DNA of 64,000 nucleotides from the NCBI GenBank assembly GCA_000733355.1, contig JNVV01000007.1, forward strand, positions 54,058 to 118,057, written 5' to 3'. The stretch is from Falciphora oryzae. Lineage: Eukaryota > Ascomycota > Sordariomycetes > Magnaporthales > Magnaporthaceae. This document shows, in pieces, positions 3,368 to 48,430 of the stretch. The translations under genes were made by a program, and so were the position numbers. Each line of letters opens with the position of its first letter. The stretch's first letter is position 1. The notes below the pieces were generated by a model. The model did no database searches, was not told the origin of the DNA, and worked only from the letters and a program-made list of their open reading frames with translations.

Positions 3368-6121
3368 TTAGTGACCGTACTCAAGGTGCGGGACAATGAC
3401 GGGCCCGTATTTGGTGGGCGCCGAGTTGAAGTTGCTGTCGCCCTGGACGACAAAGTCGACTGCGAGGCTGAGCTTTGACAGGCCCTGCTGCTGCTGGGCC
3501 TGGCCGCCGTTGACGATGCTGGCGGCGTACTGGGTGCCCGGGATGGACTCGGGATCGTAGGCGACGACGGCGACGTAGTTGCGCCGGCCCATGAGCTTCT
3601 TGAGCTCGCGTTGCGCCCCGCTTGCGTCGACCTGGAAGATCTCCATCATGTCCTCCTTGGTGTCTGACACCTCGCCCGTCGACTTGTGCCCGTTCAGAGG
3701 AACGTAGAGCATCTTGTTGGAGTTGTGCAGCATCTTGAGGATGTAGTTGTTGGCCGGCGCCGCCACGATGGGCGACGTGATGATCTGGTACATTGTCTTG
3801 TGGTCGCTCGGGTGCGACGGGTCGTGCACCAGGCCTGCTCCGCAGCAGTTGACGTCTGTCACGAAGGAATCCGAGCTGGTTAGTCTCATGTTGGCTCAAA
3901 ACCCGGGGAGCTCGCCGCTGTCCAGGCTCACCTCCAGAAAGAAACGTCATCCTGATGCCCTTCTGCTGCGAGATGCCCTGCAGCGTGCGGATCAGATATG
4001 TGCGCTCAAGGTCCTTGGTCTCGTGCGTCCACAGATCCTTAAGCTCCTCGGCAAAATCGAAGTCACCAAACTGGTTTAGCACGTTGCCCATCAGGCCCGA
4101 CTTTCCGACGGCCTTCTTGACGTGTGTGAAGCCATGCTGCACCACCTCCTTGCCGCCCACGACACCAGCCACCGAGCTCGTCACCTTGCCGAGGATGTTG
4201 TACGTCGTGTTGACTGCCTTCTTACCCGTCGCAAAAGTATTGGCAAGACTCTCTACCGTATCGAGCCGCGGGTAGATTGGCGGCACTGATAGCATCCAAA
4301 TACAGTGCTGCACGCTTGGTGGCAGCATGGCCACCTTGGGGAAGATGCCCTGGTATGTCGGCCCGGCCATGACGCGCGACTGTGTCCGCTCCGACCTCAG
4401 ATCGGCGCCGACGACCACCACGGCGGGCCCAAGGTACTTGACAAAGTGCCATCCGGCGCCCGAGATGGTGAACAGATCAATGTCGGTGTTGACGTTTCGC
4501 ATGATCTCTATAGTCGTGTGGTGCTGGAAGAGCAGGTACATCTCGATAGCTACCCTGCCGATGTTTTTGAAAATCTGCGATGACTGCATGTAGTCTGGAT
4601 ATGACCCGAACCCATCGAAACTGCAGAGCCGAGGAGGGAGGAGCGTCAGAATCGCGGCTCTTATAGCATAGCAAAGAGCAGAGAGAGGAAAAAGGGGGTG
4701 GGCGGACTCACATATCATGGTCATCAAGTTGCAGGATGTGAGGGATCTGAGCAAACGCCTCTCTGAGGAATGGCTGGTCAAAGTGCGAGGTGTAGTAGTG
4801 GAAGTAGGCGTGGGTGACGTCCTCCTCGTGGCGCGCCGTCCACTGCGCCGTCTTGCGGTTCTCTCTCCCTTGCAGCGAGAGCCACTGCTTGAGCAGCGGA
4901 ACCTCTTTCCAAAGCCGGTCACCGTAGATCTGGTCACCAAGACCGAGCTGGACGTGGAAACCTCCACAGTCGACGTTCTTCTGCAGTACATCCTTCCACA
5001 TGAAGCCAACACCCCCGAGTTTGGCCCTGTCGTTCTGCGATGTTGATGCTGCAAAGTCGTTGCCCGAGTGAGCGATAAACCGCCAGCCAGCCTCGTGCCG
5101 TCCGGCCACCACAAACTCATATCTTGTGCACCCCAGGTGTGATGTGACCGCATATGTCCAGCGCTCCGTTCCCTGCTCGCCCATCTGCAGATCCATGTCG
5201 TATTTGTAAAAAGTCCATCGCTGATGCGTGTGGATCGGGTGCGGGTTGAGCATGCGCGGGTTGGGCGACAGATCGACGCTCAGATGGAGATGGATAGTTG
5301 GCGGTTGCGGCGCGTCGGTAACAATCATGATACTGCCTAGCCAGACGCCTCGTTCGACGTCCATGTTGACATAACGCAGATAGGGGCCGAAGTACACTCC
5401 GTTTGTGGGCGCAACCTTGAAGATATCAACACCGGAGCTGGGCGGAGGCCCCGTAAAGCCCGCGGTTGGGGCTGCCGAGACTGCCACGCTCATGATGCTC
5501 TCGGCGTAGCCCGGTGTCTGGGGTGGGAAAAGGCCCGGCGAACCCATCCCCTGCTTTGTCCCGAACGGCGAGGCAAGCGGGTTTCCATACGTCGAAGCCG
5601 TTGGAGATAGCGGCGCCGTCTCGTGGTTGATCGGATTGGGACCTTTGGGGAACTCCCACTGCGTGGACTGGGTCGCGAGGTGGATGTAGTAGTACTGACC
5701 CGAGTTCTGGTCGAGGTGCGAGATCCAACCCTCGGGCAGTGGGGGAGGCGACGCCGGGTTCTGCGCGTGCAGCACCGAAGGCGTGTGGGAAATAGCGATG
5801 GACGGCTGGCCGTTCTGCCCAGAGCTCTCTGGCCTGGGGTCGTTCGCAAACGCAGGGTGGCCCGGATGCTGAAGAGCGGGCGATGCGAGCGGGTTTGCAT
5901 ATTGTTGCTGCTGCTGCTTCTTCTCTTGGTTCTGGGCCGCAGGTGCGTGCACAGCGCTGGCGCTAGCACTCGGCCCGGAAGCGACGGCGGCGGCAGCGGA
6001 TGTGCCTGCGGCAGATGAGGCAGGGTGTTGTTGCTGTTGCTGGTGTTGCTGTTGCTGGTACTGTTGCTGCTGGTTCTGCTGTTGGTGTTGCTGTGGCTGT
6101 GGCTGTGGCTGTGGCTGCTGT

Positions 6122-27005: not shown

Positions 27006-29513
27006 GGCTTCTTGTCTTTACCGATGTCTCTCACTCGTGTTTTTTCTTTCTTGGGATATTTTGGCGGAATGGCGGATGAGCTGAAGACAGTGCACAAAAT
27101 CGCGGAACCAGTGGTTGTGTTCGAATTACTCAGAGTAGGCGATAGCCATCTCTAGCATGCTGTCAGAGCACGCAGCTCAGCAAACACACATTGGGGTATC
27201 TAAAGTTTGTTATTGTCAATCATTGATGCCTTTCTCAGGTTTCCCAGGGTTATGTAAACTGTTCAGACGAACCCCACCAGAGCTGTCTTGTCGGTAACAG
27301 AGCTCACTGTGTTAGGAATGGCGAACAGCCAGGCTGCGCAAGCATAATCACATCGATGTTTTTTTTTTTTTTCACACTACCACTTACAGACTTACAGCAT
27401 ATGCCAGACAGCACAGACAGCCGGAATATGTTGTGGAAGGCGTGACGTGTCTTGAGAAAGTCAATGATCCCGATCCAAGAACAACAACGTTATATGCAGC
27501 GCTGCAAGATCTGTGGATGTCACGGATTGTGGCTGATCATACCAATCACAATCACTTCGGATACGCTACGGCCATGGCGGGGACGGGCTGGGCAGTCAAC
27601 CCTACAAGTCCTCTATGGTTGCAAGAAATCTCTACCGACGTCAAGCGGTGGAAGGTTATACTGCATGTAGATGCCGGTAGTGCTGTTTGCGTTTGAGTCA
27701 GGGCTCCCTGTCCATCTGCCTAAGTACCGATATAGCGGTACCGGGGTGGCAAGCGAGGGAATAATGATGGCGAACCGGCGGGGAGAGGTGACGAAGTTCG
27801 TCGGGATTGCACGGGCTCCTCATTTTATGGTTGGTGGTGTGGCCAGGCGTGGGAGCAGATGGCGAATGAACAAGAGACCAATGATGCGAGTGTGAATGCC
27901 AAGAGACCGGCTGACGTGCGTAGCATCCGTCTTGGGTCTGGTATGTTCTGTGACTGCGGGCACGTGGATATGACTGCTGCCAGTCTCCCCGACTCCATCG
28001 CGGACAGGGCCGATTGGGAATAGTCGAGTTGGAGGCCGGGTTGTTAGAGTTGAGATAGGGCGAATCAGGCATCCAAAGTCACCTCATGAAAAAGAACATG
28101 GCAAATTGGCTAGTGGAGAGAACTTGATTCGCCTTCGGCACATGCATTCGCCCCCAGTTTATGCATGCATGATACTGGAACCCTAATTTCGTTGCGTGGA
28201 CAGGATTGGAAGAGGAGACAAAAAAAAAAAGGCTGTGGAGCACCCGGCATCAGCATCGCAAACGACGTTGTTGGCTGAGGCCTGGCAGCCTGAGTTGGGT
28301 TCCATGATCGAACAATTTGATTTGGTCCTTGTCCAGGCGGTCAGCCCGCAGCAGGCCTCTGTGGTGCAGCGTTGTGGGATGAAGCTGGTGGCTCTGTGCG
28401 CCGACTCTGGCGTCTCAGATTGATAGATGGGGGATGCATGTCTCCAAGTCCAGCCGTTGACGGAGCGACGGGTCGATCTGCGAGATGTCCAGACATCTGG
28501 CCGTGCTGACCCTCAAAGTATGGATCCCTTGGCATCTGAGGTAGGTATGGATGACGGGTGTTTCCCGTCACTGGAAGCGAGCTTGGTGATTGGATTGGTA
28601 GCGCAGCTGGGCTCTTCCTCGAGCCGCGAGTATCTGGCATTCAGCTGGAGCATGGACTTGTAATTACATGCATCCCCCGGAGCAGAGAGGGGCAGGGAGC
28701 CTGGGTCAGGGTCTTCGGGCGATCAGATATCACGGCCTTCTGCTTGGCTAGCGTGGGACACATCTGTCGTCTTGCGGCTGCCTATCAGCAGATACCCAGA
28801 GGCTGCTTATCCCCCAAGAGGCTCGCGGAGGCCCGAGAGGTGGAGGAAGCAATTCGCGGCGAGCAATTGAGGATGCAACACGTGGTTGGCATCCACTCTG
28901 TGTCTCGCGGCCTGAGCGGTTGCGTGCAGCACTGGACGATTTGGCTGCCCGTATGTGCGCGCGTGGGTGCGTCGCCCAGAGATGAGAAGGGGGCATGAGA
29001 GCTGAAAATGGGTTCGACGACGGCCCGTCATTGGCTGTGTGGCTGTAGCGCACTGCATGCTGCCTGCACCAGCCCGGCAGCGACATTGAGCGTGAGCGGC
29101 CCAGCCACCCGTGCGCTCTGGGCAACCAAGGAAGGAGGTCCAGTCTCCTTGGTCGGGCCCAGCCCCCTCCCGTGCCCCCTCCCGCCTGGGGGCAACCCTG
29201 CCGGAGCTCGCAATCTGGGCTCCAGACCGCCTGCTCCTCCACGAACTTGCTAATTGGAGCTGCGATTGAGGCTGGCAGCCCGCAGCGCAATCATTCCCGG
29301 CCGTAAACATACAGGACAATAACATTGTTCTGGTATGTTGGGAGCGCTGGTGATGGTGACGTTCGAAGTCCAGATCGCGCCCTGAAAAACAAAGACTACC
29401 CTCTCGGATCGGCCTCTGGGTTTCCGTCGCAAATGGTGCGCGCGACGGAAGACGCCGAGCCCAGTTTTGCCGCCTGAACGCAAAACAAAACAAAGCGAGC
29501 GCCAGCCGACGCG
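27006..29513. other. Divergent intergenic region upstream of the giant gene
   Basis: About 2.5 kb between the FolB start (minus) and the giant-gene start (plus). A T14 run lies at about 27359-27372. The rest has short, unrelated open frames and no recognisable product or RNA. The length fits a large promoter for the giant gene. Confidence 0.55.
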
Positions 29514-32500
29514 ATGGGGGACCATCACCGGCGCCGGAGCCCCGAGAGCTCCCGGCGCAGACGGCGTGCGAGACAACATTCCTACGAGACGGCCTCGGCC
29601 GCCCCCGCGCCCGACAACATGGCGCCGCCGACCGTCGCCTCCCCCAGTCAGTCTGCGTACCAGCAGCAGCCACCACCACCACAGCAGCAATACCAGCAGT
29701 ACCAGTCACAACCGCAGTATCAGCAGTGCCCTTCCCAACAGTATCCTCCTGCGCAGCAATACCCTCCTCCTCCCCACCAATACCCCCCTGCGCAGCAATA
29801 CTCGTCTCCTCAGCAGAATTATCCTGCCCAACCGTACGCTCCTCAGCAGCAGTACACTCCCCAGCCGCAGTATGCGCAGCATCAGTACACTCCACAGCCG
29901 TACTCGCCGCATCATCATGTGCCCCTGCAGCAAGCCCTTCCTCAGCCCGTCCCGTCGCGTCCACGCGCCCGCGATTCGAGCTCCGACCTGTCCGAGTCAT
30001 CCTCCACCTCTGAGTCACTTCTGAACATATCTGCCCGCCGGCCGCGAGCCGTCGGCTTCTTCTCCTTCTTTAGCGGACCATCGCCCGAGGCTCAGCGTCG
30101 CAAAGCGGAAAAGAAAAAAAAAAAGAAGAAGAAGGGGCTTCTTCAGTTTGGCAACTCGAGCTCCTCGTCTTTTGAGGAGGCGCTCGCATATGGACGTGGC
30201 TACGTCTCGAGGGATCGGTCCGCCGAGCAGGTATATAACCAACAACAACAGCAGCAGCAGCAGCACTATGGAGCGCCCCACGTCGACCCTTCGAGGCCCT
30301 CGGCGCCCCAGCGAGATAAGACGGACGAGGAGATCTTGGAGATCGGACGGAAGCTGGCTAAGATGGCGAGGGAAGAGAATAGGGAGGATCTCGCCCGCGC
30401 CGGCCGCCGGCCCACGTCGCAGCTTGTCGCCGCCGCCGCCGCCATAAGCAACTTCCGGCGCAAAAACACGGCAGACCGGGCTGACAAGGATAGAGGTATC
30501 GGCTCGTCCAAGCCGGATCGCGAAGATGATGAGTCCGACTGGGAGACGTCGTCCGAGGACGAATTCTCAAGCGAAGACGTCGACATGGGCCTGGCCTACG
30601 GCTCATCTCCCGCCCTGCCTGCATCGGACTTTAGCCAGCCAGGGCCCCGGCCGGCAGAGAGCAAGCCCATGCAGCTGGACTCTCATAAGAGCACCGTCGT
30701 TGACCCCAGCCGGTTTGGGCCCTATAACTCTCTTAGGGGGCTCGTCAATACTCCTTGCGGGTTTGATGATCCCGCCAAGAGGCCGGCCAAGGTCGCCTCC
30801 CCTCGCCAGGACCGGCCTTCTCCGCGTCGGCATCGGCAGACGGCCTCGGTGGAAAGCGCCTCCTTGGAGGGGCGTCCTATGCAGCACGTTTATCCTGCCC
30901 CCACGTCCGATCCAAACAACTTCGACGTTGGCAGGTCTACCCAGCAAAGCTCAGGTTCTCGCCCCGATCCGGTTCCGATCCAGGCGCCCAAGCCCATCAC
31001 GCCCATCTCTTCGCGAGTCTATGAGGCAGATAGGTATAGGGCACCTGAGCCTCGCCGAAGCGATGACCGCAAACGGCAGTCTGATGGCTCCTCTCTCGTC
31101 GGCGCAGCCATCGGGGGTCTGGCCGGCGCTGCTGGGATCGTAGTGGCGGCGAAAATGGCTTCTGACAGCAAGGATGTGCGTGACAAGAGAAGGGAGGAGG
31201 ATGACCGTAAAGAGAAGGATGGTCGTGGAGAGGATCCTCGGGACCGCAGCGATGCTCCTCGGGAGCGCGGCGACGTTCCTCAGGAGCGCAGCGACGTTCC
31301 TCAGTATCGCAACGATGCTCCCGCTAAAGAGGATGAGCGCCGTCAACCTTTGGACGACCGTGAGCGTGCTGGTGATCGTGACCGCCCCCGCCCTGGCCAA
31401 GAGGTCCTCAAGTCCCTCGACGAGAACGCAAAACGTCGTGCCGAGCTGGAGGAGAAGATCCGCATGCTCGAGGCTCGACTCCGTGCGAATGCACCCGACC
31501 ACTCATTCACCCAGGGCGTCCAGCCAGAGCCGGACCGCGAACGGGACAGGGAGCGTGAGCGGCGGCGAAAAGAAAAGGAGCGGAAGGACGTCGTGGTTGA
31601 GCAGCCCGAGGCAGCTCCCACTTCTGCGGTCGCCGAACAGAGGGAGCGACGCCGTGGAGAAGAGCCCAGGGATATCCAACCTGCGGCCAAGAAGTCGGCT
31701 CCATCGAGTGGTTCATACCCAGTAGAACGTCGCGCCAACGATACCGCGGGCCAGGCTTCGTCAGCGCCGCCTGCAGACGACGCATCTGTTGACCCTTTCC
31801 AGTTCCAGGTTGCCGACGATGCCTTCCCGACCCCGCTTCACTCGACGACTCCAATCCGCCCCCTGACTCCAATGGTCAAGACGGTTGAGCGCGAGCCTGA
31901 CTTCTCCAACTTCGACACGTCCAAGTTTATTCTACCCCGTGAACCCCCAAAACAGCCGTCTGATGAGCGACTGAGCCGCCTTGACTCGTTCGAGAAAGGT
32001 GAGCGGGATGCGGAGAGGCGAGAGTCGGATCGTGCGCGCGAAATTGCCGAGGACTCGACTGCCCCGATTCCTGCAGCAGCAATGGCGGCGGCAGCCGCTG
32101 TGCTCGAGCGTCACAACCATCGAGGCCGCAAGGGATCAAGGGGCGCGGAGCCGCAGCCGATCCGCTCTCGCTCGCAGGAGAGACAAGCCGTCAAGGATAG
32201 GGACGCGGTGCAGGAGGAGGCCAACAAGTACTATCGACAGAGCGTTGCGGCCCGGAAGATGGAGGAGGAGACGATCCGCTCCCGCAGCGCCTCTCCAGAC
32301 TCCTCCGTGATTGACAAGTATGACCAGGACGAAGACCCTATCGTTCGCATCGTCACGCCGCCGCAGATGCACCGCAAGGAGAAGAGCATTTTTGAGGGGC
32401 CAAACGCCGATGTCAAGGTCGACAATTTTATCAAGCCCCAAGATCTTGCGAGGTACCGCTTGCCTCGTGAAGAGCGCCTCTCGACCTCGTCTACGACGCC

Positions 32501-35500
32501 GATTTTCTGGTCCAGAGACCCCTCGTGTGAACGCCCGCGACCCATGCTCAACATTGTTTCTCCGACCCCTATCCCGACGCCGTCTCCCGAGAAGCAGCAG
32601 TCGAAGTCGGAGCCGAAGGAGCCAGAACCGGAAGAAGCGAGCGCCGACAAATCGCGGTCTGCGCCCACGGTGGTGCTCAATCAGAGGGGTGAGGTGGTCG
32701 AAGCTCCCAGTGCATTCAAGACCGTGTCCTGGGGCGAGAACGAGACGAAGCATATCGAGTCTGACAGGACCGACCGAACCCCCAGGCACGTCCAAGAGGA
32801 GCCCGGGTCTGAATCGGTAGAGAAGCATAGGTCGGAGTCGGTAGAGGAAGCCAACTCTCGGCCGATAGAGGACCCGAAATCGCCTCCCAAGGAGAAGAAG
32901 AAGAAGAGTGGCTGGGGAATTTTCGCTGCCGCTATAGCAGGGGTTGGCGCTGCTTCGGGCGTGGCCGCAGCAGCCAAAACCGCCTCCGATAAGGGGAAGA
33001 AGGTCGAAGACACCAGGGAGAAGGTCGAAGACACCAGGGAGAAGGTCGAAGACACCAGGCAGAGGATCGAAGACACCAGGGAGCTCCCTGAGTCTGATGC
33101 CACTGAGCGTAGCATCAGCCCATTTGATCCTGAAATCTCTGGCGCGGCCGACGACGGTGACCCTCGTATTCCCGATCCGACGCCGATAAGCCCCCGAGCT
33201 GCTCAGCCTGCGGATGCCTACGACGACGACCTGGGCTTCGCAGCCACTCTGGCGGCTGGTCTGCAGGACAGCGGCTTCGATCCAAATATTGTGATCGACG
33301 ACCCCCAGTACCGAATGCGAGAGTCGTCTGCTGGCTCAAGGGAGCCCCTGAGCGACCCCTACCGTGCCCCGCGCTTTGAGGTGGCCAACGACCTTGACTC
33401 GTATCCTCGCAAACAGCAGACGGATATACCCTCGGCATTCGACTCCGTGACTGATTCGCCTCGTGAGATGGGCTCGTTAGTTGATGAACCTGACACCCCT
33501 CGCAAGTTGAGCAAGAAGGAGCGGCGGAGGCTCGAGAAGGAGCAGGCAGCCAAGGATCAAGAGACGGAGAGTCTTGTGGATGAAGGTCCTGCCAACATTG
33601 CCGTCCCACCAATCAAAGACAAATATGCACCATTTCTGATAGAGGGCGAGTCAACGTTGGTGGACAAGGTCGAAAAGGCCGAACCGGCTGATGTCGTCCT
33701 GGTGGATGAGTGGCCTACGGCCCCTCATATCACACACAAGCTAAAAGAGTCCGAGCCAGTGGATTTTTCTCGTGAGGTTCCTGCTCCTATCGAAGAGCCA
33801 ACGCCACAGCCACCTGTCACTGAGAGAGGACAAATTGTCGACGATGGCTGGGGAGCTCCTACCTTCTCTACTAGGAGCAAGACAAAGAAGAGGAGGGAGA
33901 GCAGCGGCGCACCGACACCAGCCAACACGGAACCAGTCATCCCAGAGGTCATTGCAGCAGAGACTGTAGTGGTGCCTGATGCCCCGGCAGCATTCCACAA
34001 AGAATCCCCAACTGCCTTTCAGCCCGAGCCTCGGGCTGAGTTGAAGAAGGGACTACCTGTGGAAGACACCGATATTTCGGCATGGGGCGACGCGAAGACG
34101 AGTTCTGATTCAAGAGCCATCCCACCAACAGACACAGAGGAGGCTGCAGTGGCCACTGAGACCCCGGCTGGGCCTCAAACTGAGTCTGAGGCCCCAGCCC
34201 CTGCTGAACCCGAGCCTGAGCAGCCGTCAAGTCCCAAGGCCTCGAAAAAGGAGTCCAAAAAGGCATCAAAGAAGGTCGCGCAGCTGGAGGAAGCATCACG
34301 GTCCCTTGATGCTGACCCCGCTCTCCCGATCGAGGCCGCCCGCCCCGAGATTACGGCAGAACAGTCATCAGTGGTGTCAGAGGCGGCGCCGGTGGAGGTC
34401 GCTCCGGTGGCTGATGTACAGCCATTCGAGAGTGTGGAAGTGGCTGACCCATTTGTTGCTCCCCCTGCCGGTTCTCAGCCTGAGCCCGAACCGCCGCTGT
34501 CACCGAAGGCGGCAAAGAAGGAGGGCAAGGGGTCGAAGAAGGCTGCCGCTGAACAGCAGGACCCAGAGACCCCCATCGAACGTGAGCCTGTCTATCCAGA
34601 GCTTGGCATGGATGTAACTTCAGAGCCCATCGAAACTGCCCCTTCAGAGCCCGTTGGAATCGCTCCTTCAGAGCTCATCGGAGCTCCATCGTCAGAGCAA
34701 GCAGCCGACACTGCGATAGTTATCGATGAACCAGTCGAGCCGACGTTTTTGCCCATCGAAGCTTCTGAGACCGTCCAACCTGCGGAAATTATCGAGGCCG
34801 CTCAACCCACGCAGACTATTGAGGCTGTCGAGGCTGTCGAATCTGCTGAGCTTACCAAGCCCCCTGAGGCCCCGGTGGACCCCGAGACTACCGAGACTCC
34901 CAAGGCTACCGAGCTTACACTGGTCTCTGGGGCTATTGCGGCGGGGAGTGAAATTGTGGCCGATCCCTTCTTGGAATCTCAACCAGCGACGCCGACGAAA
35001 AAGAAAGGCAAGAAGGGGAAGAAGTCTGTCTCGAAATTGGACGAGGTAGAGTCCGTCGTCACGTCACCTCAACTAGGTGATCTTGATGACCATGTGGCCG
35101 ATTCTAGCTTTGAATCTCAACCGGCGACCCCCACGAAAAAGAAGGGTAAGAAGGCAAAGAAGACGGCCTCGAAATTAGAGGAGGTGGAGACCATCGTCAC
35201 GTCACCTCAATCAGGTGGTCTTGATGACCAAGGCGTCTCATCATCGCGGGAGCCAGTCGAGACAGCGACCGATATCCCGGCCGACATGCCGACCGAAGCC
35301 GTCACTCCCGCAGCCGAGGTTCTGGCTGATGAGGAGAAGCTGCAAACGGAGGTTGTTGATCCACCAGCCTCCCCTCTCTCTAAAAAGAAGGCCAAGAAGG
35401 CCAAAAAAGCTGCGCTTGCAACACCCAAGGAAGATGAGGCCCCTGCCGTCTTGACGCCCGCAATCGAGGTCGGGCAGGAAAAGCCAGAAACGGAGGGCGA

Positions 35501-38500
35501 GAAGGACAAGCTGCGGTCTGAGGTCGACAAGGATGAGCCTCAGGCTGAGGCTGTGCAGGACAAGCCGCAGACACAAGCCGAGACGGACAAGCCACAGGTC
35601 GAGGTCGAGAAGGGCAAACCACTGGGCGAAGTTGTCGAGGCTGTCGAAGCTGAACCGCCTACTGCCCCTACTACCCCATCCAAGAAGAAGTCGAAGAAGA
35701 GCAAGAAGGCTGCTTCACGGGCCGAGACTAGGGAGCCCTCGCCCTTGGGTGAGAGGAGGATTATCGATTTAGAAGGTCCCTCCGAGACACTCGCAGGGTC
35801 TCAATCTGTGGAGACAGCCGCCCCTGAGGCTGCAACAGCTGCTCCTGATGCCCCCACGGCTGCTCCTGATGCTTCACCAGCTGCTCCTGATGCTTCAACG
35901 GCTACTCATGCTTCAACGGCTGCTCCTGATGCTGCAACAGTTGTCCCTGATGTGGGCGAAGCTGTCCCCGATACCGCGACAGCTATCCCTGAGGCTGCAA
36001 CAGCGGTGCCTGAGGCTACGACGTCTACCCCCGAAAACGCACCAGAGTCCGGCACAGCTGGACAATCAGAGATTCTCAAGGAGATTAAAAAGGTCAAGAA
36101 GGGCAAGAAAGCCAAGGGACGAAGTGGAGACGACCTGACCGAGGCCTTGGACACTCCTAAAGACAAAGGGGGGCATCCGGACGGGGAGCCTCCCGACAAA
36201 AATCATGATCTGGATGAAGCTGTGGACCGAGACATGCCTTCGGCTGGATCGGACCGCACAGTCTTTGACGACGCGACGGAGCGCCCTTCCAACGGCGACA
36301 GCGGCAAACAGGCGGCTGAGGCGAAGCCGGTCGAGCCAGCGCCAGGCGAACCCAACAGCAAGACAAGGCAGGTGGGAGGAGGCTTCTTCAGCAGCTTCTT
36401 CAAAGGCTTGACGGAGGACCCAGTGAAAGCGGCACCGGCCGGCGATAAGAAGCATTCTTTTTTAGCTAAAGCCGGCACCATTGGCGCTGGTGCCGGCTTG
36501 GCGGGCGTGGCTGCAATTTTCAGCTCCGCGTCGCGCGCGAATGCCACCCCCTCGAATGCCACTCCCTCTACTACTCCCCCACCGCCGGAAGCCCAGCCGC
36601 CGACCCAGGCGCCCGCCGAGGCTCCCGTCGAGCCGGTCGAGCCCGCCGAGCCTACCGAGCCTGCCGAGCCTGCCGAGCCTACCGAGACCCCTTCCCAAGG
36701 CGCAGAGCAGCTTGATCCCGAGATTGTTGCACGGGTTATCAAGCCCGCCATCGACCCGCAGTTCGGCGACCTGCTGCCGTTGCCACCCAGCCGGCCTGCA
36801 TCGCCGTCGGGGTCGACCCTCGACGATGAGCTACCCCCTCTGCCAGAGAGCCGCCCGGAGACGCCTCCGGAGCAGGAACGGCAGATAATGAGGCAGAAAT
36901 GGGCCTCGCGCCGCCGGAGCGTTCTTGAAACCCCCCATGCGAGGTCGCCCAGCAACACTGCGGTTCCCCTTCAGTTCCGCCTGCGGTCGGTGCCGCCATC
37001 CCCCAACATCAAGGCGTCCCCCGCACAGTCGCCGGCGGCGCCGTCACCAGAGCCTGGGAGTGCGACAAGGAGGTTCGCGCGCCCAATGTTGTGGGGCACG
37101 AGCCGCGAGATCATGCCACTCTATCTCCCAGAGCATGTGAGGTCGGGCACGCAGGCCGATGTTGAACTGCGGCTTCCCGAGCTGCCGCCTAGCGAGCCCT
37201 CGTCCGACCTGGAGTCGCCCGCCTCTGAATTCTTCAGCCCCCGCGAGGGCGACGTCGACTACTTTGACCATGACGACCGCGGTTTTTGTGGACCACTGCG
37301 TCTGGACACGTCTGTTTCCGATACCTTCCGCTCAGCCCATGACCATTTAGGCTCCGAGGAGAACACCCCCAAGGCCGAGCGAGGCCTCCATCCCGCCGAC
37401 ATCCTGTCACAGAGCTTCTTGTCGCAGAGCGATGCCGGGTCGAATGATATCTTTGAGGATGCAGCCTCGCAGCTATTCCACTCGGCTGCTCATAGTCCTA
37501 TGGTAGAGCGGCATTCTCCGCCCGAACCACAGTCGCTGATACATGAGAAACATCCGGAAGCTGGTCATATCCAGCCTTCTCTCGCACCCGCACCTGTGAT
37601 CAAGGGCCTGGGTATCGGGTTCGATGACGAGACCTACGCCCGAGATGTCACACCAGCAGACTCTCTCCCGCCCCACTCGCCGCTGGCTCCTGAAAGTGGC
37701 GATGCTAAACCGAAAACAGCACTTGAAATTGCAGGTGCAAGCGCCGCCGCCGCCGCCGTCGTTCACTTAGCAGACGCTCCCAGCACCGTGGATGGAGCCC
37801 ACGTCGAAAAGGGCCAGGGGCACAAGCCGGAAGCGGCGCTGTTCACTGACCCAGTTCCCTCCGAGAAAGGGCTTGCAGACTTTGAGCAAACCACGCCGAC
37901 CACGAAGGGAAAGAAGAGCAAGAGCAAAAAGACTTCAACTGTCGATGATGGCGACGTCGTCAAGAACTTGCCCGAGCCTGAAACAAATGATTCCGAAGCT
38001 GTCCTGCCGGAAGCGCGGACCAACCCTCTTGAGGATACAGCAGCCGAAGCATCTGCCCCCAGGGAGGTTGCGACAGAGACTTCAAAGTCGATTCTATTGG
38101 CGCCGCAAGAACAAGCCGCAACTCTCGACGAGCCTCTGATTCCGCAAGATCAAGAAACACCCGTGAAAGAGCCTCTCGTATCGCAAGATACAGCCCTCGC
38201 AACTGACGGCCTTCCGCCGTCTCCTACGACGAGCAAGAAGGAGAAGGAAAATAAGGGCAAGGCGAAACTCGCCGCCGGCTCAGTGGAGGAAGCGGAACCG
38301 GAGAAAGCAGTAACCGGTGCCGAATCTGCTATGATAACCGAAACCTCCAAGCCGGTTGTCGAGACTGAGCAGACAGAAGTTGCAGCAGTTCCTGCGCCTG
38401 ATATTCCGGATGAGGACTCCATTCCGGTCGAGTCAGGCGTGCCAGGGTCTGAGGTTGAGACGAGCGACGTCCAGATTCCATCTCGAGAAATTCAAGCGGT

Positions 38501-41500
38501 TGAAAACTCTGGTGACTTGGCCGCTGACACAGCTGTTGTCGATGACCAGCTGGCAAGCCCCTCTCGTAGCGAGAAAAAGAAAACAAGCGGCAAGCAAGTC
38601 GTGTTTGAAGCACCAGCCGATCAATCTTTTTCACAAGACCTTGCGCTTCCTGCTCCTCCTATTGGGGAAGAGCCTACCATCAGCCACGAGGAGACGACAG
38701 AAAAGCCCACTACAGGTCCCCCGGAACCGCAGCAAGAGCCTACCACAAGCCCTCAGGAACCGTCAGAAAAGCCCACCGCGGGCCCCCAAGAGACGCAACA
38801 AGGACCCACCACGGGCCCTCAAGACACGCAAGAAGAACCCGCCCCAGGCCCTCGGGAGGCGCAAGCAGAGGTGCCGCTCCCTGATGAGTCAATGGCTGCT
38901 GGGGACCCCTCTGGCCCCGCCCAGCCCGGCAGAAAGAAGAAGAAAAAGAAGGGAAAGAAGAGTGCGGCTGCGGGGCCTGAAGTGGCAGCATCGCAGCCCG
39001 AGGGGTCTCTGGGGCATGAGGCACAGAGCACTGTTGACGCGGGCTCCTCGAATGATGTGGACGTCCGGAAAGATGTAGACACATTAGCGAATCCAGAAGA
39101 AACGGCTCCTCTGGCATCGGGCGCCGAGGTCGACTCAACACGATCAATTGACCGAATGGGCTCTCAGGCTGGTTCTACGGACGCTTCCAAGACGACAGAG
39201 CCAATCCTGGCGGTGCCGAAATCCGGGACCCGCGATGTGACGGCGGGGGGTTCGGGCGCTAAACGAGAGTCAGCTAGCCTCTTTGGTGCTGATGCGCTGG
39301 CTGCTGCCGGCGTGGTGGCCGGGGTGCTGCTGGGAGGCGGTCAGGGTGGACAGGGTTCCCCCGAGGCCCAGGGCTCAGTCAGCTCGCCGCCGGACGACTC
39401 GCCCACTGCTACTGAGGGGGTCGCGGAGCGGCATGTCGCGGCGACACAGGAAGGCCCTGCCGCCGACGCAGCCGAAGCAGCGCAAACGGGTGAAGCAGTG
39501 GTGGAGACGAGTGGGCCCATTGAGGGGCCATTGCAGCGCGAGACAGCCGAGCAGAGCAAATCGTGGCAAGACACAGCTTCCCCCGCTCCCGACACCGCTA
39601 CTTCGCCACCACCGGACCCACCCACGGACCTGGCGCAACCTTCCGCCGCAGCTGATGCTCCGGCCGTCGAGCCTCCTGAGGACACTGTCCCTGCCCCCGC
39701 CCCTGCTCTTGGTAGCAGCGCACACCTGCAGCCCGGCAGTCAGCTCTACCATGCCGAAGACACGCCTGCCGTGCCCGACGAGCCCGAGGGCCGGCCTGGC
39801 CCCGATGAGCCTGCCCCTGCCGAAACCGAGGATGTCTCGGCGGGTGCGGAAGGAGCTACGGAAGCGGCACCGTCCGAGAACACGGGCAAGGAGGCTTCCA
39901 AGACCAAGCAGTTTTCCCCTGCGCCTGTGCCGGTCGAGATCCCAACTGTCCAGACGCCGGAAGAGCCCCTTGCTCTCGAGCACACTAGGACTGAACAGCC
40001 TCGTGATGTGAAAGATGGCAGCGCCAACAATGATCGGCCGGCAACACCATCCACTGATATCCGGCCGGAGCCGGCCGGTTCTGTTCCCGCTGAACCTGCC
40101 CCTGAGCCTGTGTCGTCAGAGGCCACGCCAGGCAAGAAGTCAAAGAAAGGCAAGAGGAGCAAGAAGCAGGCTACCTCCGAATCTCTGGATGATGCCGCTA
40201 CCTCTGCAGAACAGAGCAAGGCCGCTGACGGTCCGGAACTGCCTGTCGAACTTTCGGATGTCGCCCTGGTCGAGCCGCAGGATACCGTCTCCGAAGTCCA
40301 GGACACCAGTGTCGACAGCAAGGAATCAGACAGCAAAAAGACGAAGAAAGCCAAGAAGCAGGATCCAGCGAGTCTGGAAAACATTCCTGTCCCCGGGCCG
40401 CAAAAGTCGAGCGAAACAGAACCAGAGCCGTTGAAGGACACCGTCGACAACGCTGCTGATTCACTGGCCGCCTCTGCCCCTGAATCTCTGGAGCGCGAGG
40501 TTGAGCCACTTCCCCAGGCTGCAGAACGGCTGTCTGAGACGTCACCTGCTGATCTCGCTGGACCCTCGCGGGGTGAATCCGTTCTTTTATCCCAAGAGCC
40601 CGAGACTTCATCGGAAAAGCTGGCGCCCAATGGTGAAGTAGATGGGACTGGCACTCAAATCGAGGCGACCATTACTCGGGATTCTGAGAGGTCTCTTGAA
40701 ACCGCAACTTCCGACTCTGCGGCCGATGCTCCTGCGTTGAGTGAGAGTCACGTTCAGCCTCTGGAGGCTCCTGAGGTACCTGGCCTTACCGGACCGGCCG
40801 AGACGGGTGATGATGGTCCAATACTTGAAAAACAATCGAGCGATGCTCTCCCCCCGACTGTCGACAGCACAAAGCCCGAGGACGAGGTGCCTTTACCCGA
40901 GCCGCCACAGGTCGATGTTGCTGCCGAGGAAACTGTCGGCGGAGAGTTACCCGTCTCGGATATCCCTCCACCTTCGTCCCAGGAGGACTCCCAGTACCCC
41001 ATACAGGCCGCCGGCCCTTCACCTGTTAAGCTCTCCAAGAAGGAAAAGAGAAAGTTGAAGAAGCAAGGTATCACCTCCCCCGATCCTGAGGCACCAGTAC
41101 TCTCTGAGACTCTGAGCTCTGTTCCAGAAGGCCTAGGTGTTGTCGCCAGCGAACCTGCTGTGGCTCCTGGCGCGACCCCAGAGGGACCGTCTGTGTCGGT
41201 ATCAGTCCTAGTCGCCGCTGAGCTAGCCCCAGCGCCCGAAGTTACGTGGGATACTCCTACTAAAAAGGCCAAAAACATCAAGAAAAACAAGCAGCAGCAA
41301 GAGGCTGAGAGCACGCCAGAATCGACCAGCGCGGATCTTCCGGTGCCCGCTGTGCAAGTTGGGGTTGCGCCCAAAGAGGGAAAAAGGCTGCAAGAGCCCT
41401 CAAAGACCGAACCTTCCGTTTCGTCAAATCCCATGGACACCGAACAAGCCTTGCATCCTCCTGTTCCGGCGGCCGATGAAGCTCAACTACCGCCGACCAT

Positions 41501-44500
41501 CGATGCCGAGGCGCCCCATGGCGAGGCCCCACATTCTGCTGTCAATGAGTCTATGAGTGCACCCCCGACAGAGCTGCCCGCGGTCTCGGAAGTTTCTCAT
41601 TCCGAGCCACCAGCCACTCTCCCGGATGCGCCTGAGCTTGGTACTGCAGAGATCAATGCCGACATCGCGACAGAGCCTGTTCCTGATACAGCTACGGAGC
41701 CTGTCGCCGAAGTCATCGCAGCGCCAAATGCTAATGCGCTAGAGCCAAAGAAGACGATCGAGGGAGAGCCTCCAGCAGTCGCCACAGATGGTGGGTTTCC
41801 TGCTACTGCCAAGAAGTCAAAGAAGGACAAGGAAAAGACTAAGAAACGGGCTTCGCTCGCCGCAGTGGAGCCTGTCGGCGACGGCTCATCTGCCACTCTT
41901 GCCGAGCCTATGCAAGAGTCCTCAGCTGAAGCTTCGACTCAGCCGGTTGCCGAGACACCCCCAGACGCTCTTTCTCACACAGTTGCTGAAACTTCTACGG
42001 AACCTCTGGCCTCGAGTAATGACCCTGCGCCCATGCAGTCACCTATCCCGTCTGCCGTCGAACCCCAGCCCGAGCCCTTTGTCAAACCCCCCAAAGATAT
42101 TTTACTCGACGCCTCCAAGGACGATCAGCCATCGGCCACAGCATCTCAGGACCAGCCTACCAACCCCGCCGAGAATGCCACAAGAGGCCAAATCGAGGCT
42201 CCGGTTGAGACTTCTGTTGAGCTGGCTAGTGAGGTTGCGCCAGAATCATCGGTTGAGACACCTGCTGAGGCTCCTGTCGAGAGACCGTCTCTTGAGACCT
42301 CGGCCAGAGACCAAGCTCATGTCGAAAGCCCTCTTGCCGATGATTCTCTTCCCGTCCAAATTCTTCCCGATCCTCCGCGATTTGATTCGAGCCAGCCTCA
42401 GGCGGAGGAAATCGCCCCTTTTGGCACCGCGGTCGAATTGTCCAAGAAAGACAAGAAAAAGGAAAAGAAGCAGAAAGCAGCGAAGGAAGAGCAACCCGAG
42501 CAAGAGCAACCAGAACGGGAAACACCAGCAGATGTCCCCACTGATGCCGGCACGGCCGTCGTAGATGCGCCAACAGCTGAAAAAGCTCTAGAAGAGCCCA
42601 AACTTGGACAAGAAATCCCGCCCCCAGAGTCGTCTCTTGAGCAAAGTACCGTCGTCGAAGATGCACAGCCAGAGGAGACGATTGAGGTTGAGAAAACTGC
42701 CGTCGGGGGTGCTTCTGAGTCGAGAGCGGCTAAGACAAAGAACGACAAGAAAATGAAGACCTCGAGAGAAGACCCCGGCGTGCCGCAACAAGGCGCCTTG
42801 ACTAACGAGGCCGAAGCCTCTAAACAGACTCCGGCCGACCAAACACCCCCTCTCCCTGTCGGCCCCCTCAAAGACATCGCAGAAGGGGAGATGCTTCCCG
42901 ACCAGCCAACCGAAGGCAGGGTGGAGTCCCCGCTCCAAGTTCCTGCGGACGCTCCAATCGTGACGGAAGCAGAGGTTCATTCTGAGGACCTTTCCAGGGA
43001 TATCTCTGTTCATCCGGCAGCCGACTCGCCAGAATCTTTCGCAGGGGGCGCTGTCGTCGAGCCCAGGGCGGATGCTCCCTCGTATGAGTGCGTGCTGCAA
43101 GACCAAAGCACACCCAAGGTTGACGACACTGCCGAAAAGGCTCACCCCAGCGACGACCTCGCCCCGCCAACCACTGAACCGGACTCCATACCTGGAGAAC
43201 AGCTGCCTTCGGCCCGCGAAGCGCCGACTCCCGAACCATCAGGGACGTCCAAGGGAGCCTTTGGCGCAGGTGCTACAGCCACGACCCTCGCTTTGGGGGT
43301 GGCAGCACTGGCGGCCGAGGCCGGGTCGGTGCCAAAGAAAACCAAGAAGTCAAAAAAGGACAAGAAGTCAAAAAAGGACAAGAAACGGAAGGGCGCTGAA
43401 GATGCAGATTCCGAGCCCGCGTCTGGCATATCCACGCTAGCCGCACCGGATGACGACAAGCCAATGGACACACCGACCCCTCCTGTGCAAAGCTCCCCTG
43501 ATCCCTCCCCCGCCCTTCACGATGCCGCCACGGTTTCCCGCCCCGGAGACATTCAGGCCCAACCTGCTGGCGTCGTTGATCCTCCCATGACCGAGCTGGC
43601 TCCCACAGAGCCAACTGCAGCCCAGCTTTCAGGGATCGAGTCCTCTGCGTCTTTGGACGCGCCAGGTCTGGGTATTGACGAGCCTCAAATCTCGGAACCC
43701 CAGCCCGAGACGGAAGCGAGGCGCAAGGCAGAACCCGCGACGTCCGAGGGTTCAACTATGGCGGATGTGCCTCCTGTGCCAGCTACCGAGAACTTGGATA
43801 CTCCCAACGTCCAAGCAGATCCCACAACCCAGGACCACGGCGATGCACTCCAATCGGGTGACAAGAAAGTATTCGAGCAGAGTAGTGTCGCAGATGCCCA
43901 GGCTACCCCAGCGGACGAAGAACTTCCCAAGGTCGCAACCAAAAGGTCTAAAAAAGGTAAGAACAAAACAGCAACCCCTCCGAGTTCCGAACCCGCGCTC
44001 ATGAAACAGTAAGACGCCGAGCTGGGCGTTCTCGCAGATAGCACCAGTATCCCAGTGTCTGGGCGAGAGACAGAGTCTGGCACCACAAAGCCAAGCGAAG
44101 TGGCGCCAGAAACTGGGCTCTCAGAGGTCATCACGAAGACGTCCAAAAAGTTACAGAAATCCAGAGCCGGAAAATCTATGGAGAACGCGTTGGAATCTGA
44201 GCAGCCCTTGACCAGTAATCCCAATCATGAGGCCACTCAGCCTATCACAAGCCCAATAAGCGTCCCACCCGAATCGTCAGCGGACACCAAGAACACGACC
44301 TCAGATTCTCAACCTGGACCCGAGAGTATCGGAATTTCCAAGACCATAGGCATCGACAGAGGCCAGACTCGAGAGGAAGACTACTTCACTGTAAAACCTG
44401 ATACGGCAATGCGTACTCTGCCCATGGAGTCCTCGGGCGGCGTGTTCGAGATCCACCCCGCCGTTTCGGGGATCCTTGAGCCCAAGGGAAAAGAGGCCGA

Positions 44501-46632
44501 GTACCTTCCGCCCAGTCCGCCGCCGAAGGGCCTTTACCTGATGACACGAGAAGGGTCTGATGCATTCCTCAAGGACGGGCACATACCCAAGCTTCTCACC
44601 GCCCAGACCGATAGCCCTGTGACTAGCCCGCAAGACCTTGAAAGCGGGACCGATTTAATAGCAGGGCGTGAGAAGATGACGGGTGCTGGTGGAGTTCACG
44701 AGCCTTCTTCCAACGATAAGTCAACCACACAGCAGTCAACGGATGACACCCCACCATCACACACCACGGCAAAGGAGCGGACTGGTTCAAAGCGAGATGG
44801 CAAAAGGCCAGCCGACACACCACCAGAGTCTGCAAGCCCAACCAAAGACAGTGCCATAAAGACTGCTGCCACTGCAGGCGTGGTGGGCGGTGGCGTAGCC
44901 GCGCTGGCCAAGAAGGTCGGCGGCCCCACAAAGAAGACAAAGTCCAAGAAGCCCAAGATCATCGACCAACGAACGGACCGCGGTGACGACTTGCTTGACG
45001 ACCCACCTCTGTGGGAAGGGGAGGATAAGAAACCGATGGAGAGCTCGAGGAGTGGCCTGAATTTGGGGAATTTCCGGGAGGTGGCTGACAAGCCCACAGA
45101 AGAAGGCTCAGAAGCCAGTGTCAGTACTGGTGACGACGTCTGGGGCACAGGCGACGGTGGGGAGTCAAAGATGGTGATAGATATGGATCCTAGGGGCTCC
45201 ACACGAAGCTTCTTGTCTACGACGACGGACAGGGGCCTGGACGAGAATGGCAGGAGGGGAGGCACAATGCTGCACAGGGACATGCTCTCCGATTTTGGCG
45301 ACAGCCCGATGCTTGGGTCTGAGGAGAAGTTCCTCGACCGCGTGCCGCTCGTGGACTCGCCGAACGACTTGACACCAAAAACATCTCCCGCTCTTCACCC
45401 CGAATCGAGGTTCCCGCCATCACCAGCGCTGCCAACGGATCAGAAACAGACACCAGCTGGCCCTGTGGAGCAAGAGCAGCATGACCTCCATAGCGGCACT
45501 CGAGGTCTAGGTCAAGCAGATGAAGGGCGCAGCGGGCCAAGGATGTCCCCTCAAACACCACACGACTGGGAGGTTCTGAAGAAGGACATGTACGGGCCCC
45601 ATATCCACGACACGTCAGAACTGAGAAGGACACCCTCGAGGACACTGGAACCCGTGCTGGAAGAGGAGGACGAGACGGATGAGTCGACAACGAACAAGAC
45701 CAAATCAAGGGACAAAACGGGATCACAGGATGCAGATAGGGACAGCGGATATGCGGCCGACTCTCCGGCGCCAGCCTTTAGACGGCCCCGATTCGAACGG
45801 CCGGAGAGTCCGGTTCGTGACAGCGGAGTTCACCTGCGAGACTGGCCAGAGGGCCCGACCCAAGCACGAGACGTGGGCCGATTCAGCCCTGACCCCACGA
45901 GAAGATTGTCCCCAACCGTACTACCAAGCACACCGATTGGGGACGCAAGCAGGAAGCGTTTCTCGCCGCTCAGAGGAGAGGCGACGCGGGAGCTTACAGA
46001 GACGGACACCCCGCGACCACGGGGGCCAGAGCCGTACCAGCCAACACCAGAGCCGCTGAAGCAGCCCAGTAGCGGGAGCGGCCTTAGCGACAAAAAGCGA
46101 GGCTCTTACAAAGAGCAGCTGGGCAGCGGTTCGATACCCGCGGCGATTATGGGAATGCCAGCGAGAGAGCGGGCGCCACAAACACCGGTGGAAGAGCAGC
46201 GGGGAGCTTCAGAGCACAGCGCCGCATTGAGGCGCATGTCGCCAGCCTCACCGCTGGCGGGACAGCGTGCGTTTGGCGGCGTACAGTACTACGGCGGCTC
46301 AGGGCAGCGGACCATGTCCAACACCAGCGTAGCGCGGAGGCGAACACCCGACCTGGCGCTCAGCACCAGTGGGCTGCCTGAAAGCCCAGGCAGCCTTCGG
46401 TCCGTTGGGGGCACGCCCCCACTTCGTCGGGTCGACAGGCGAATGAGCGGCGATCTTCGATCCATCAGCCAACTCAGCGGCGTGGTTGGCCAGGCCCAGC
46501 CCCGACCCACCGACAGCGCAGCCGACAAGGATTTACCAACCAGGGGGGCTGGGAGTGTTGGGGCTGCGGATGCGACGGCGACTGCGTCTGCCGCTGCTGC
46601 ACTTGGACTTGGAGCAGCTGCGACCCTCGCTA

Positions 46633-46664
<32 letters not shown>

Positions 46665-48430
46665 GCAAACAGCACCAGCGCGCCCGCCAGCGCAAACAAC
46701 AACAGCACTCCGGTCGCCAATGAAGGCCGTGTCCGCGCCAAAGAGATGGCCGACGTCTACGTGAGTTTTATTTCTTGTTCGCCTCCTGACTCGATTTATC
46801 CATCAATCAATTGAGAACCACCTGCAGTCGAAAATCAATCGCCCACCGCCTTCCCAATCAATCAATCAATCCATCGCTGCTAACACGCGCAATCACCGCT
46901 CAGGATGGCTACGGAGAGGGCCGCATCGGCTCGCCTCGCTCCCCGACGAGGCCCCACAGCATGCGCCGCCGCCAGAGCATGCAGGTCATCGAGCTCGAGG
47001 CCCGAGTCGAGCAGCTGTCGGCAGAGAACCGCTCGCTCCACGAGGCGCGCGCCCAGGCCGAGCAGGCTTACAACCATAAAACCGCGGGTGCCCTGGCCGA
47101 GCGCGACGAGCAGATCGACGCGCTCAAGCGCTCCGTCAAGTTCCTCACCGACGAGGCCGCCCGCCTGACCGAGGTCAATGAGGGCCTGCACAGCGCCATC
47201 TCCCAGACCGCCGTCAACCACAATGACCGCTACCGCCTGCTCGAAGCCCAGCATGCCGACACTACGCGCGAGCTCGAGCAGGTGCGCAGGGCCAGCGGCA
47301 GCACTCCTCCCCCATCCCACCAGCTCCTGGCCGACAAGGATGCCGAGATCTCGCGTCTGCGCGCGCAGCTCGAAGAGGCCAAGGAGAAGATTCGCGAGCT
47401 GCAGCGCCAGATCCTGGCCACCAAGGGCCCCGATAGCGATTTCCTCGTCGCCCACGACATCGACCACTTCGACCACCGCTGCCAGCAGCTGTGCTCCCAT
47501 GTCCAGCAGTGGGTCCTGCGCTTCTCCAAGTTCTCAGACATGCGCGCCTGCCGCCTGACGGCAGAGATCAACGACGAGAAGATCATCGACCGCCTCGACA
47601 ATGCCGTGCTCGACGGCTCCGATGTCGACAACTACCTTCGCGACCGCGTCCGCCGCCGCGACATCTTCATGTCCATGACCATGTCCATGATCTGGGAGTT
47701 TGTCTTCACCCGCTACCTCTTTGGCATGGACCGCGAGCAGCGCCAGAAGCTTAAGTCGCTCGAGAAGCACCTACTCGAGGTCGGCCCGCCCCATGCCGTC
47801 CGCCAGTGGCGCGCCGTCACCCTCACCCTGCTGGCCCGTCGCGCCTCCTTCCGCGACCAGAAGGAACAAGACACAGAGGCCGTAGTCCAGGCTGTGCTCC
47901 AGACACTGTCCATGATCTTGCCGCCGCCCTCCAACCTCGAGGATCAGATCCAGTCCCAGCTGCGTCGCGTCATGCGCGAGGCCGTCGACCTGTCGGTCGA
48001 GATGCGCACTCAGCGCGCCGAATACGTCATGCTGCCGCCCCTGCAGCCTGAGTACGATGCCAACGGTGACCTGACCGCCACGGTGCCCTTCAACGCCGCC
48101 ATGATGCACGAGCGCTCGGCCGACACTACCAAGGGCGATGAGCTCGAGGCCGACGGCTCCACCGTCCGCATCGTGCTCTTTCCACTCGTCGTGCGCAAAG
48201 GCGACGACCAAGGCCGCGGCGACGATGAGGTCGTTGTCCACCCGGCACAGGTGCTCATCTCTAGGCCCTCGAGCTCCAGCAGGCGCGGCGGAGGCCGCCT
48301 CCTCACGCCCAGCTCCGATGCCGGTGGCGCGAGCCTCCTCGGCCGCAACACCTCCCCGATCTCAGCACCTCCCACCATCAGGAGCACCCTCAGCATGCCA
48401 GACGCCGAGCCGCTCGAGGGTGGGTTCTAG
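29514..48430 (+). CDS. Giant leashin-like (involucrin-repeat) protein
   Basis: Preferred exons are 29514-43956, 44038-46760 and 46904-48430, giving about 6,230 residues. N-terminal landmarks are a basic start, a Gln/Pro/Tyr-rich region (about 45-150), then RRPRAVGFFSFFSG, a lysine run and LLQFGNSSSSSFEEALAYG. The middle is disordered, acidic and Pro/Ala-rich with about twenty KKxKKxKK clusters and eight Ala/Gly-rich hydrophobic stretches. The last exon holds a coiled coil (about 5750-5890) and a folded C-terminal region (about 5900-6155). This layout fits fungal proteins called involucrin-repeat or leashin, which tether Woronin bodies and act at the septal pore and hyphal tip; family assignment is inference from architecture. 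Intron 2 (143 nt) has a ctaac branch. A TAA at 44010-44012 interrupts the frame unless the 81-nt intron is spliced. Confidence 0.78.
32919..32990 (+). other. Ala/Gly-rich hydrophobic segment of the giant protein (one of eight)
   Basis: Encodes GIFAAAIAGVGAASGVAAAA at about residue 1135, directly after a lysine cluster. Similar segments start near residues 530, 2320, 2736, 3257, 4582, 5088 and 5667. They are the only long hydrophobic stretches in an otherwise charged, disordered protein and have GxxxG/AxxxA-like spacing. They could be membrane-associating or self-packing segments; this is inference. Confidence 0.6.
33000..33083 (+). repeat. Four 21-nt tandem repeats (KVEDTRE)
   Basis: Units at 33000-33020, 33021-33041, 33042-33062 and 33063-33083 encode KVEDTRE, KVEDTRE, KVEDTRQ and RIEDTRE. 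The first three are nearly identical in DNA, so expansion was recent. The heptad length and alternating charge suggest a short helical or coiled-coil segment in the giant protein. Confidence 0.92.
34974..35249 (+). repeat. Two 138-nt tandem units with a TPTKKKGKK core
   Basis: Units start at 34974 and 35112, exactly 138 nt (46 codons) apart. Each encodes ESQPATPTKKKGKK, then a KxxSKL(D/E)EVE segment and a VTSPQ end. They are close in DNA as well as protein, marking a recent in-frame duplication within the giant gene. Confidence 0.9.
35814..36041 (+). repeat. Eleven 21-nt units (TAAPDAx-like)
   Basis: Eleven units encode variants of T-A-A-P-D/E-A-x; one unit (35898-35915) is a codon short. 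They form a Pro/Ala-rich, flexible, mildly acidic linker in the giant protein. Confidence 0.9.
38703..38867 (+). repeat. Five exact-length 33-nt units (KPTTGPQExQQ-like)
   Basis: Units at 38703, 38736, 38769, 38802 and 38835 encode KPTTGPPEPQQ, EPTTSPQEPSE, KPTAGPQETQQ, GPTTGPQDTQE and EPAPGPREAQA. Each is 33 nt with no indel, so the frame has been kept through duplication. Confidence 0.92.
43957..44037 (+). other. Predicted 81-nt in-frame intron containing a TAA stop
   Basis: The donor is aaaaag|gtaagaac and the acceptor gttctcgcag|atagc. The length is a multiple of three and the join (KRSKKG-DSTSIPV) keeps the giant reading frame. If retained, translation would stop at TAA 44010-44012 after 4,832 residues. 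A second donor-like gtaaga begins at 44009. The branch site is weak (ctcat at 43998-44002 is the best I see), and the segment itself translates plausibly up to the stop, so retention, readthrough or a true nonsense change remain possible. Confidence 0.55.

Follow-up and report, generated by a model that had tools for sequence, protein, structure and literature searches.

The in-frame TAA codon that interrupts a giant gene in the analysed window (a stretch of 64,000 nt from Falciphora oryzae) sits, on the reading to which we assign a probability of roughly 0.8, in a small, ordinary spliceosomal intron (43957-44013) that is most likely spliced constitutively and belongs to one fused leashin-like gene. 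The proteins of both close relatives, GGTG_01538 of Gaeumannomyces tritici (P0001) and an environmental protein (P0121), are without the segment that holds the stop and continuous across the junction, so that removal of the stop by an in-frame intron, as proposed in an earlier note on this DNA, is the most likely explanation. We infer that the segment functions as an intron in vivo, with constitutive splicing and with decay of the unspliced mRNA. Exon 1 would be joined in frame to exon 2 by excision of 57 nt, and with both introns of the gene excised a single protein of 6,238 residues would carry the N-terminal region together with the C-terminal coiled-coil region. In messages that stay unspliced, or that are mis-spliced at 44009, the frame would close after about 4,830 codons, and their most likely fate would be degradation, not use. 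The features on which the argument draws are as follows.

29514..43956, + strand: exon 1 of a probably leashin-like gene of the involucrin-repeat type, covering the N-terminal region and the greater part of the acidic, low-complexity tether (frame, alignment to P0001)
43957..44013, + strand: best-supported candidate for intron 1, 57 nt, phase 1, GTAAGA..TAAG, holding the in-frame TAA (gap in P0001 and P0121, scores of the alternatives, chance test)
44010..44012, + strand: TAA, in frame solely upon intron retention (sequence, frame)
43998..44002, + strand: CTCAT, branch-like motif (motif scan)
44007..44009, + strand: competing CAG acceptor, 53-nt intron (frameshift, protein end at 4,824 aa)
44035..44037, + strand: CAG acceptor of an 81-nt intron, in frame, deleting AELGVLAD (counterpart kept in both close relatives)
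44014..46760, + strand: exon 2 (frame, comparison with relatives)
46761..46903, + strand: intron 2, 143 nt, GTGAGT, branch GCTAACA, CAG (position DVY/DG common to other fungi)
46904..48430, + strand: exon 3 (heptad-rich stretch, hydrophobic segment, conserved C-terminus)

Reading frame and junction in close relatives

A frame scan of the window gave a stop-to-stop frame of 29478-44012, with the same frame open again over 44013-46814, and thus confirmed the earlier description of a frame that is open for 4,832 codons between the ATG at 29514 and the TAA at 44010-44012 and then resumes. The ATG at 29514 leads into the N-terminus MGDHHRRRSPESS, which matches MGDRHRRRSPESS of G. tritici GGTG_01538, and the stretch around the stop has a single match in the genome (50.2 Mb, 123 contigs). 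Once both introns are removed the computed product has 6,238 residues and zero internal stops, in place of the 6,230 residues given before. The product of retention, previously described as a short N-terminal protein, would be N-terminal but 4,832 aa long.

With the read-through region around the stop as query, one protein was found, P0001 (6,144 aa, annotated as 'Involucrin repeat protein'), which is the closest named full-length protein found and shares 67% identity with the window protein over 5,748 aligned residues (MAFFT, whole protein). A search for shorter proteins returned 13, the best of which was P0121 (1,530 aa, on a contig of 5,285 bases). Judged by this gene alone, the window belongs to a fungus near Gaeumannomyces. 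The window reads ELPKVATKRSKK-(GKNKTATPPSSEPALMKQ-stop)-DAELGVLADSTSIPV at the junction, while G. tritici reads ELPKIAAKRSKK-DDGLGGLSGSVGIPV (KRSKK-DDGLGGLSGSVGIPV) and P0121 reads EFPKVAGKRSKK-NAELGILSDSVGIPA (KRSKK-NAELGILSDSVGIPA, joined at KRSKK|N), with nothing in either of them replacing GKNKTATPPSSEPALMKQ and the stop. Both are without exactly the 19 codons at 43956-44012. Excision of 43957-44013 creates the split codon G|AC (Asp), and the product, KRSKKDAELGVLADSTSIPV, with the junction KRSKK-D-AELG, aligns here without a gap to both relatives. G. tritici thus shares the left flank and a phase-compatible residue at the junction, but it continues with D-DGLGG where the window has D-AELGV, and it is known here as a gene model. 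Just before the junction P0121 is also shorter: by eye, well over 100 residues that the window and G. tritici have there are missing from it, for which a real deletion, another intron and an assembly effect are all possible causes.

We scored the alternative forms against P0001 and P0121 by global alignment with free ends (BLOSUM62), and the 57-nt form was the best of them against both (210 and 233, respectively). For the 81-nt form the scores were 185 and 187, and for the read-through without splicing 181 and 204; the retained form, when truncated at the stop, had 71 and 66, and the 53-nt form that uses the CAG at 44009, cut at its own stop, 75 and 64. The last of these was rejected as a candidate: it shifts the frame and ends the protein at 4,824 aa.

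These scores also bear on the boundary drawn in the earlier note, an 81-nt intron of 43957-44037. Its donor gtaaga and the cag at 44037 exist, the latter has a short pyrimidine lead and the form stays in frame; 44037 as the true acceptor is nevertheless disfavoured by the relatives. The 81-nt intron would remove eight residues, AELGVLAD, that have counterparts in both of them (AELGILSD in P0121), and the sole branch motif lies 36 nt away. Hence we rejected it as the main form, and consider it quite improbable as a sole or alternative form. The peptides across the junction tell the two apart, being KRSKK-DAELGVLADSTSIPVSGR for the 57-nt form and KRSKK-DSTSIPVSGR for the 81-nt form.

Two caveats apply to the relatives. 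P0001 is a gene model, in which an intron may have been placed so as to avoid a stop; and, as the relatives are known here from their protein sequences, the gap in them may instead be a coding deletion. P0121 may derive from a spliced transcript, since its frame, which is without the DVY|DG intron, fills most of its short contig and since its close relative in the window has intron 2. Among the matches listed, 29 environmental or unnamed proteins were examined at DVY|DG, namely P0121 and 28 others. Fifteen of the 28 cross the position cleanly, like P0121, and three of these lie on contigs of 57-94 kb (P0072, P0073 and P0107), the genomes of which probably lack intron 2. Nine others (P0028, P0029, P0031, P0033, P0039, P0043, P0105, P0123 and P0126) contain the translation of intron 2 between DVY (or SVY) and DG, that is, they read in frame through an intron which here is 143 nt long and not a multiple of three, and four (P0124, P0130, P0131 and P0133) end within about 20 residues past DVY. 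Because nine read through intron 2 and four end soon after DVY, the environmental sets include unspliced open reading frames.

Splice signals, composition and the chance of such a gap

The candidate intron has GT..AG ends and a branch motif, and its exact excision restores a frame that matches the relatives. The donor GTAAGA at 43957 is good; the branch motif, CTCAT at 43998, is weak, and it is the sole CTNAY branch-like motif on the + strand of 43957-44200. The branch A, at 44001, precedes the AG ends at 44009, 44013 and 44037 by 8, 12 and 36 nt, respectively; for the CAG at 44009, 8 nt may not leave enough room. CAG is normally preferred over AAG, and an AAG acceptor just 3' of a CAG is unusual; here the AAG acceptor at 44013 follows the CAG at 44009 by 4 nt.

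In base composition intron 1, with 12% T, falls below the exons (16%) and intron 2 (27%), and a still lower value is seen in one of the 26 candidate introns collected from this genome (264 kb covered). Eleven of the 26 have a length of 3n and 15 carry a stop in the upstream frame; the set was picked partly by a low in-frame coding score and is valid solely for T content, length and retention stops. Among fungi, introns of length 3n that contain an in-frame stop are common. An intron profile built from 20 extra 10-kb stretches and the window, of which the 26 are a stricter subset, was discarded as too noisy, with 14 GAG acceptors among its 54 candidates being a sign of false positives.

The 17 codons 5' of the stop have a coding score of 0.18 in frame and of -0.42 and -0.36 in the other frames (model trained without this gene). 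A lower score is found for 42% of the gene's in-frame stretches, and 9.6% and 2.8% of the out-of-frame stretches reach 0.18. By a codon-usage score taken from the gene's own exons, the 17 codons exceed 17.6% of in-frame stretches, and their value is reached by 1.4% and 2.3% of those out of frame. This coding-like composition would be expected if there were no intron at all, the 19 codons being coding, the TAA being either a true nonsense mutation or an erroneous base and an in-frame deletion having removed the codons in the relatives. In-frame length differences are indeed abundant in the alignment with P0001, where 509 of the 6,257 window residues (8.1%) are without a G. tritici partner, in 45 runs, and 396 P0001 residues are without a partner in the window.

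However, the sole stop in more than 6,000 codons would then have to fall by chance in one GTAAGA..AG run. Sixteen of the unpartnered runs have at least 10 residues, and the only one readable as GT..AG within 6 nt is the run that holds the frame's only stop. When all 5,686 in-frame segments of 57 nt were considered, 318 were readable as GT..AG and 13 (0.23%) as GTRNG..AG, these 13 including some at this very site, that is, its own neighbours. By our own arithmetic the joint chance (8.1% x 0.23%) is about 2 in 10,000. We thus give little credence to the reading without an intron, and an intron ending at 44013 is preferred.

Probable leashin identity and the position of the stop

The gene is likely a member of the leashin family and encodes, to judge from sequence, one fused protein. 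Leashins (Neurospora LAH-1/LAH-2, Aspergillus Lah) are tethers that bind Woronin bodies (WSC) and the rim of the septal pore. The earlier description as a giant leashin-like gene is borne out by its size, its acidic and variable middle and its conserved ends, and P0001 carries the name 'involucrin repeat protein', which we take to be linked to Lah. The spliced size of 6,238 aa fits the giant size of leashins, for which 5,936-7,480 aa in other species and a predicted 10,821 aa in Neurospora have been given (PMC2690989). When the C-terminus of P0001 served as query, 492 proteins were matched at E<=0.001, in a search that considered solely proteins of 0.55-1.75 x 6,144 aa and is silent on the frequency of split genes. 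Among the matches listed (the best 120 of 492), sizes range from 3,413 to 7,919 aa, and two Pyricularia proteins, Fusarium, Colletotrichum and Botrytis are represented; seven of the 18 Fusarium relatives listed have 7,425-7,634 aa, near the 7,480 aa given for the Gibberella homolog by Ng et al. (PMC2690989).

Conserved ends enclose a poorly conserved acidic middle (the N-terminus having been compared with P0001 alone), with a net charge of -323 over residues 1001-4814 and with P, A, E and S as the commonest residues over 1001-5700. Beyond a heptad-rich span (residues 5758-5905, by eye) comes a moderately hydrophobic segment (5985-6003), 235 residues from the C-terminal end; the mean hydropathy of this segment, only 0.95-1.04, is weak. 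The layout may correspond to that of Aspergillus fumigatus Lah, in which a 219-residue domain follows a predicted membrane segment (PMC5345055). Pfam searches with the three exon pieces gave nothing above the cut-offs. Gly/Ala-rich hydrophobic stretches recur along the tether (spliced-protein residues 528, 1136, 2317, 3256, 4583 and 5095; window 29514-46760), and at least two of them lie directly ahead of Lys-rich motifs, e.g., ...ALGVAALAAEAGSVPKKTKKSKKDKK.

The stop falls, as stated earlier, between the long part of the tether and the C-terminal coiled-coil module, and it was from this position that a switch by retention had been proposed, in which the unspliced message would give a 4,832-aa N-terminal tether, a LAH-1-like form that is without the C-terminal module. 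The weak acceptor and branch features would suit such regulation, and the Neurospora lah locus does give two proteins, LAH-1 and LAH-2 (PMC2690989). Like the window gene, the Neurospora locus encodes a giant acidic protein with conserved ends and a variable middle; its mechanism is different, however, in that there are two transcription units, with a lah-2 promoter, and LAH-1 is ended by an alternative exon, splicing at intron 10 opening a new frame for its end (PMC2690989). The authors of that study suggested a single fused leashin as the ancestral state (PMC2690989), and the window gene fits the fused form.

The retained stop would also lie 2,748 nt upstream of the next exon junction. A stop far upstream of a later exon junction is a typical substrate of decay, and because of this distance the retained message is an expected decay substrate. 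A stop upon retention is, moreover, common, both in this genome (15 of the 26 candidate introns) and in Yarrowia lipolytica, where retention almost invariably makes a premature stop and unspliced transcripts accumulate upon inactivation of UPF1 or UPF2 (PMC2911113). The window intron would be like these NMD-cleared introns in giving an in-frame stop when retained; it differs in being of length 3n, a class that is under-represented in Yarrowia, most of all where the intron is stop-free (PMC2911113).

Reports of intron retention in leashins were not evident in the leashin and Woronin literature, judged mostly by titles; in a Trichophyton paper on alternative splicing, a word search of the main text met leashin once, in the reference list; a literature search on retention or NMD with Magnaporthe oryzae gave nothing beyond plant NLR genes; and for the G. 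tritici locus name no literature was found. With both close relatives continuous across the junction, retention stops being ordinary and the Neurospora mechanism being different, we regard regulated retention as very unlikely and find the proposed division of tether from C-terminal module unsupported. In a separate observation, the C-terminal part is modelled as a gene of its own in Pyricularia oryzae: the protein P0122 (ACKVWC_004633, 1,349 aa, representing a cluster of five sequences) begins at an internal Met some way past the position of intron 1; a real split, a stop and an annotation break are all possible there.

For the gene model it follows that the acceptor is most likely 44013, that the protein has 6,238 residues and that the stop gives no evidence of a divided tether.

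A possible origin in lysine-rich repeats

Constitutive splicing today is compatible with an origin of the intron by intronization, which we treat as a possible, though rather doubtful, history. The 57 nt would once have been coding within a lysine-rich repeat (KKSKK-x-KKK), the Gly-Lys codons GGT AAG would have become the 5' splice site, and the stop would have arisen, or have been tolerated, afterwards. The frame through the donor reads KRSKKGKNK (KRSKK-GKNK), which continues the lysine-rich repeat. Other copies of K[KR]SKK are followed by at least two Lys/Arg in the next four residues in five of six cases in the window and in 16 of 19 and 15 of 18 cases in the two Pyricularia proteins; the same count is two of four in P0001 (one being this site) and none of one in P0121 (this site). 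At this place, flanked by sequence that can be aligned, the two Pyricularia protein models carry 12 coding residues, SKKKKGANVTDL; the corresponding 36 nt would be too short for an intron. The 17 codons 5' of the stop score as coding-like in frame (0.18, as given above), and the repeat recurs at 35146, where it includes GGGTAAGAAG as coding sequence. That copy, AAG AAG GGT AAG AAG GCA, contains a 5' splice-site consensus but is apparently left unspliced. Among the 19 Gly-Lys (AAA/AAG) pairs of the spliced gene, GGT AAG is used in one.

Against these points stand several others: the 'GK' is forced by the donor consensus itself, a score as high as that of the 17 codons is also seen in 20% of 595 stop-free stretches of non-coding DNA, and the outgroup consists of two gene models at the protein level. 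Intronization was also rare in a fungal survey of Cryptococcus, which counted five cases in 28,256 introns (PMC2740785). The Cryptococcus cases are alike in that internal exonic sequence became an intron through new splice boundaries, yet they had cDNA-confirmed boundaries and four related genomes (PMC2740785), whereas here gene models and a repeat motif are at hand. The repeat and the coding-like score suggest, short of proof, that the intron may have been derived from exonic repeat sequence.

It is thus tempting to speculate, though we hold this wider view only tentatively and incline against it, that the intron arose recently by intronization in the lysine-rich repeats of leashin, in which AAG AAG GGT AAG (Lys-Lys-Gly-Lys) equals a consensus 5' splice site, so that repeats could seed introns. 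Its splicing might then be leaky through the acceptors at 44009, 44013 and 44037, with some truncated or slightly shortened tether as a result. If intronization did occur, giant repeat proteins would be a place of intron birth, their repeat codons resembling splice sites, and the Magnaporthales would offer the before-and-after states of one such event.
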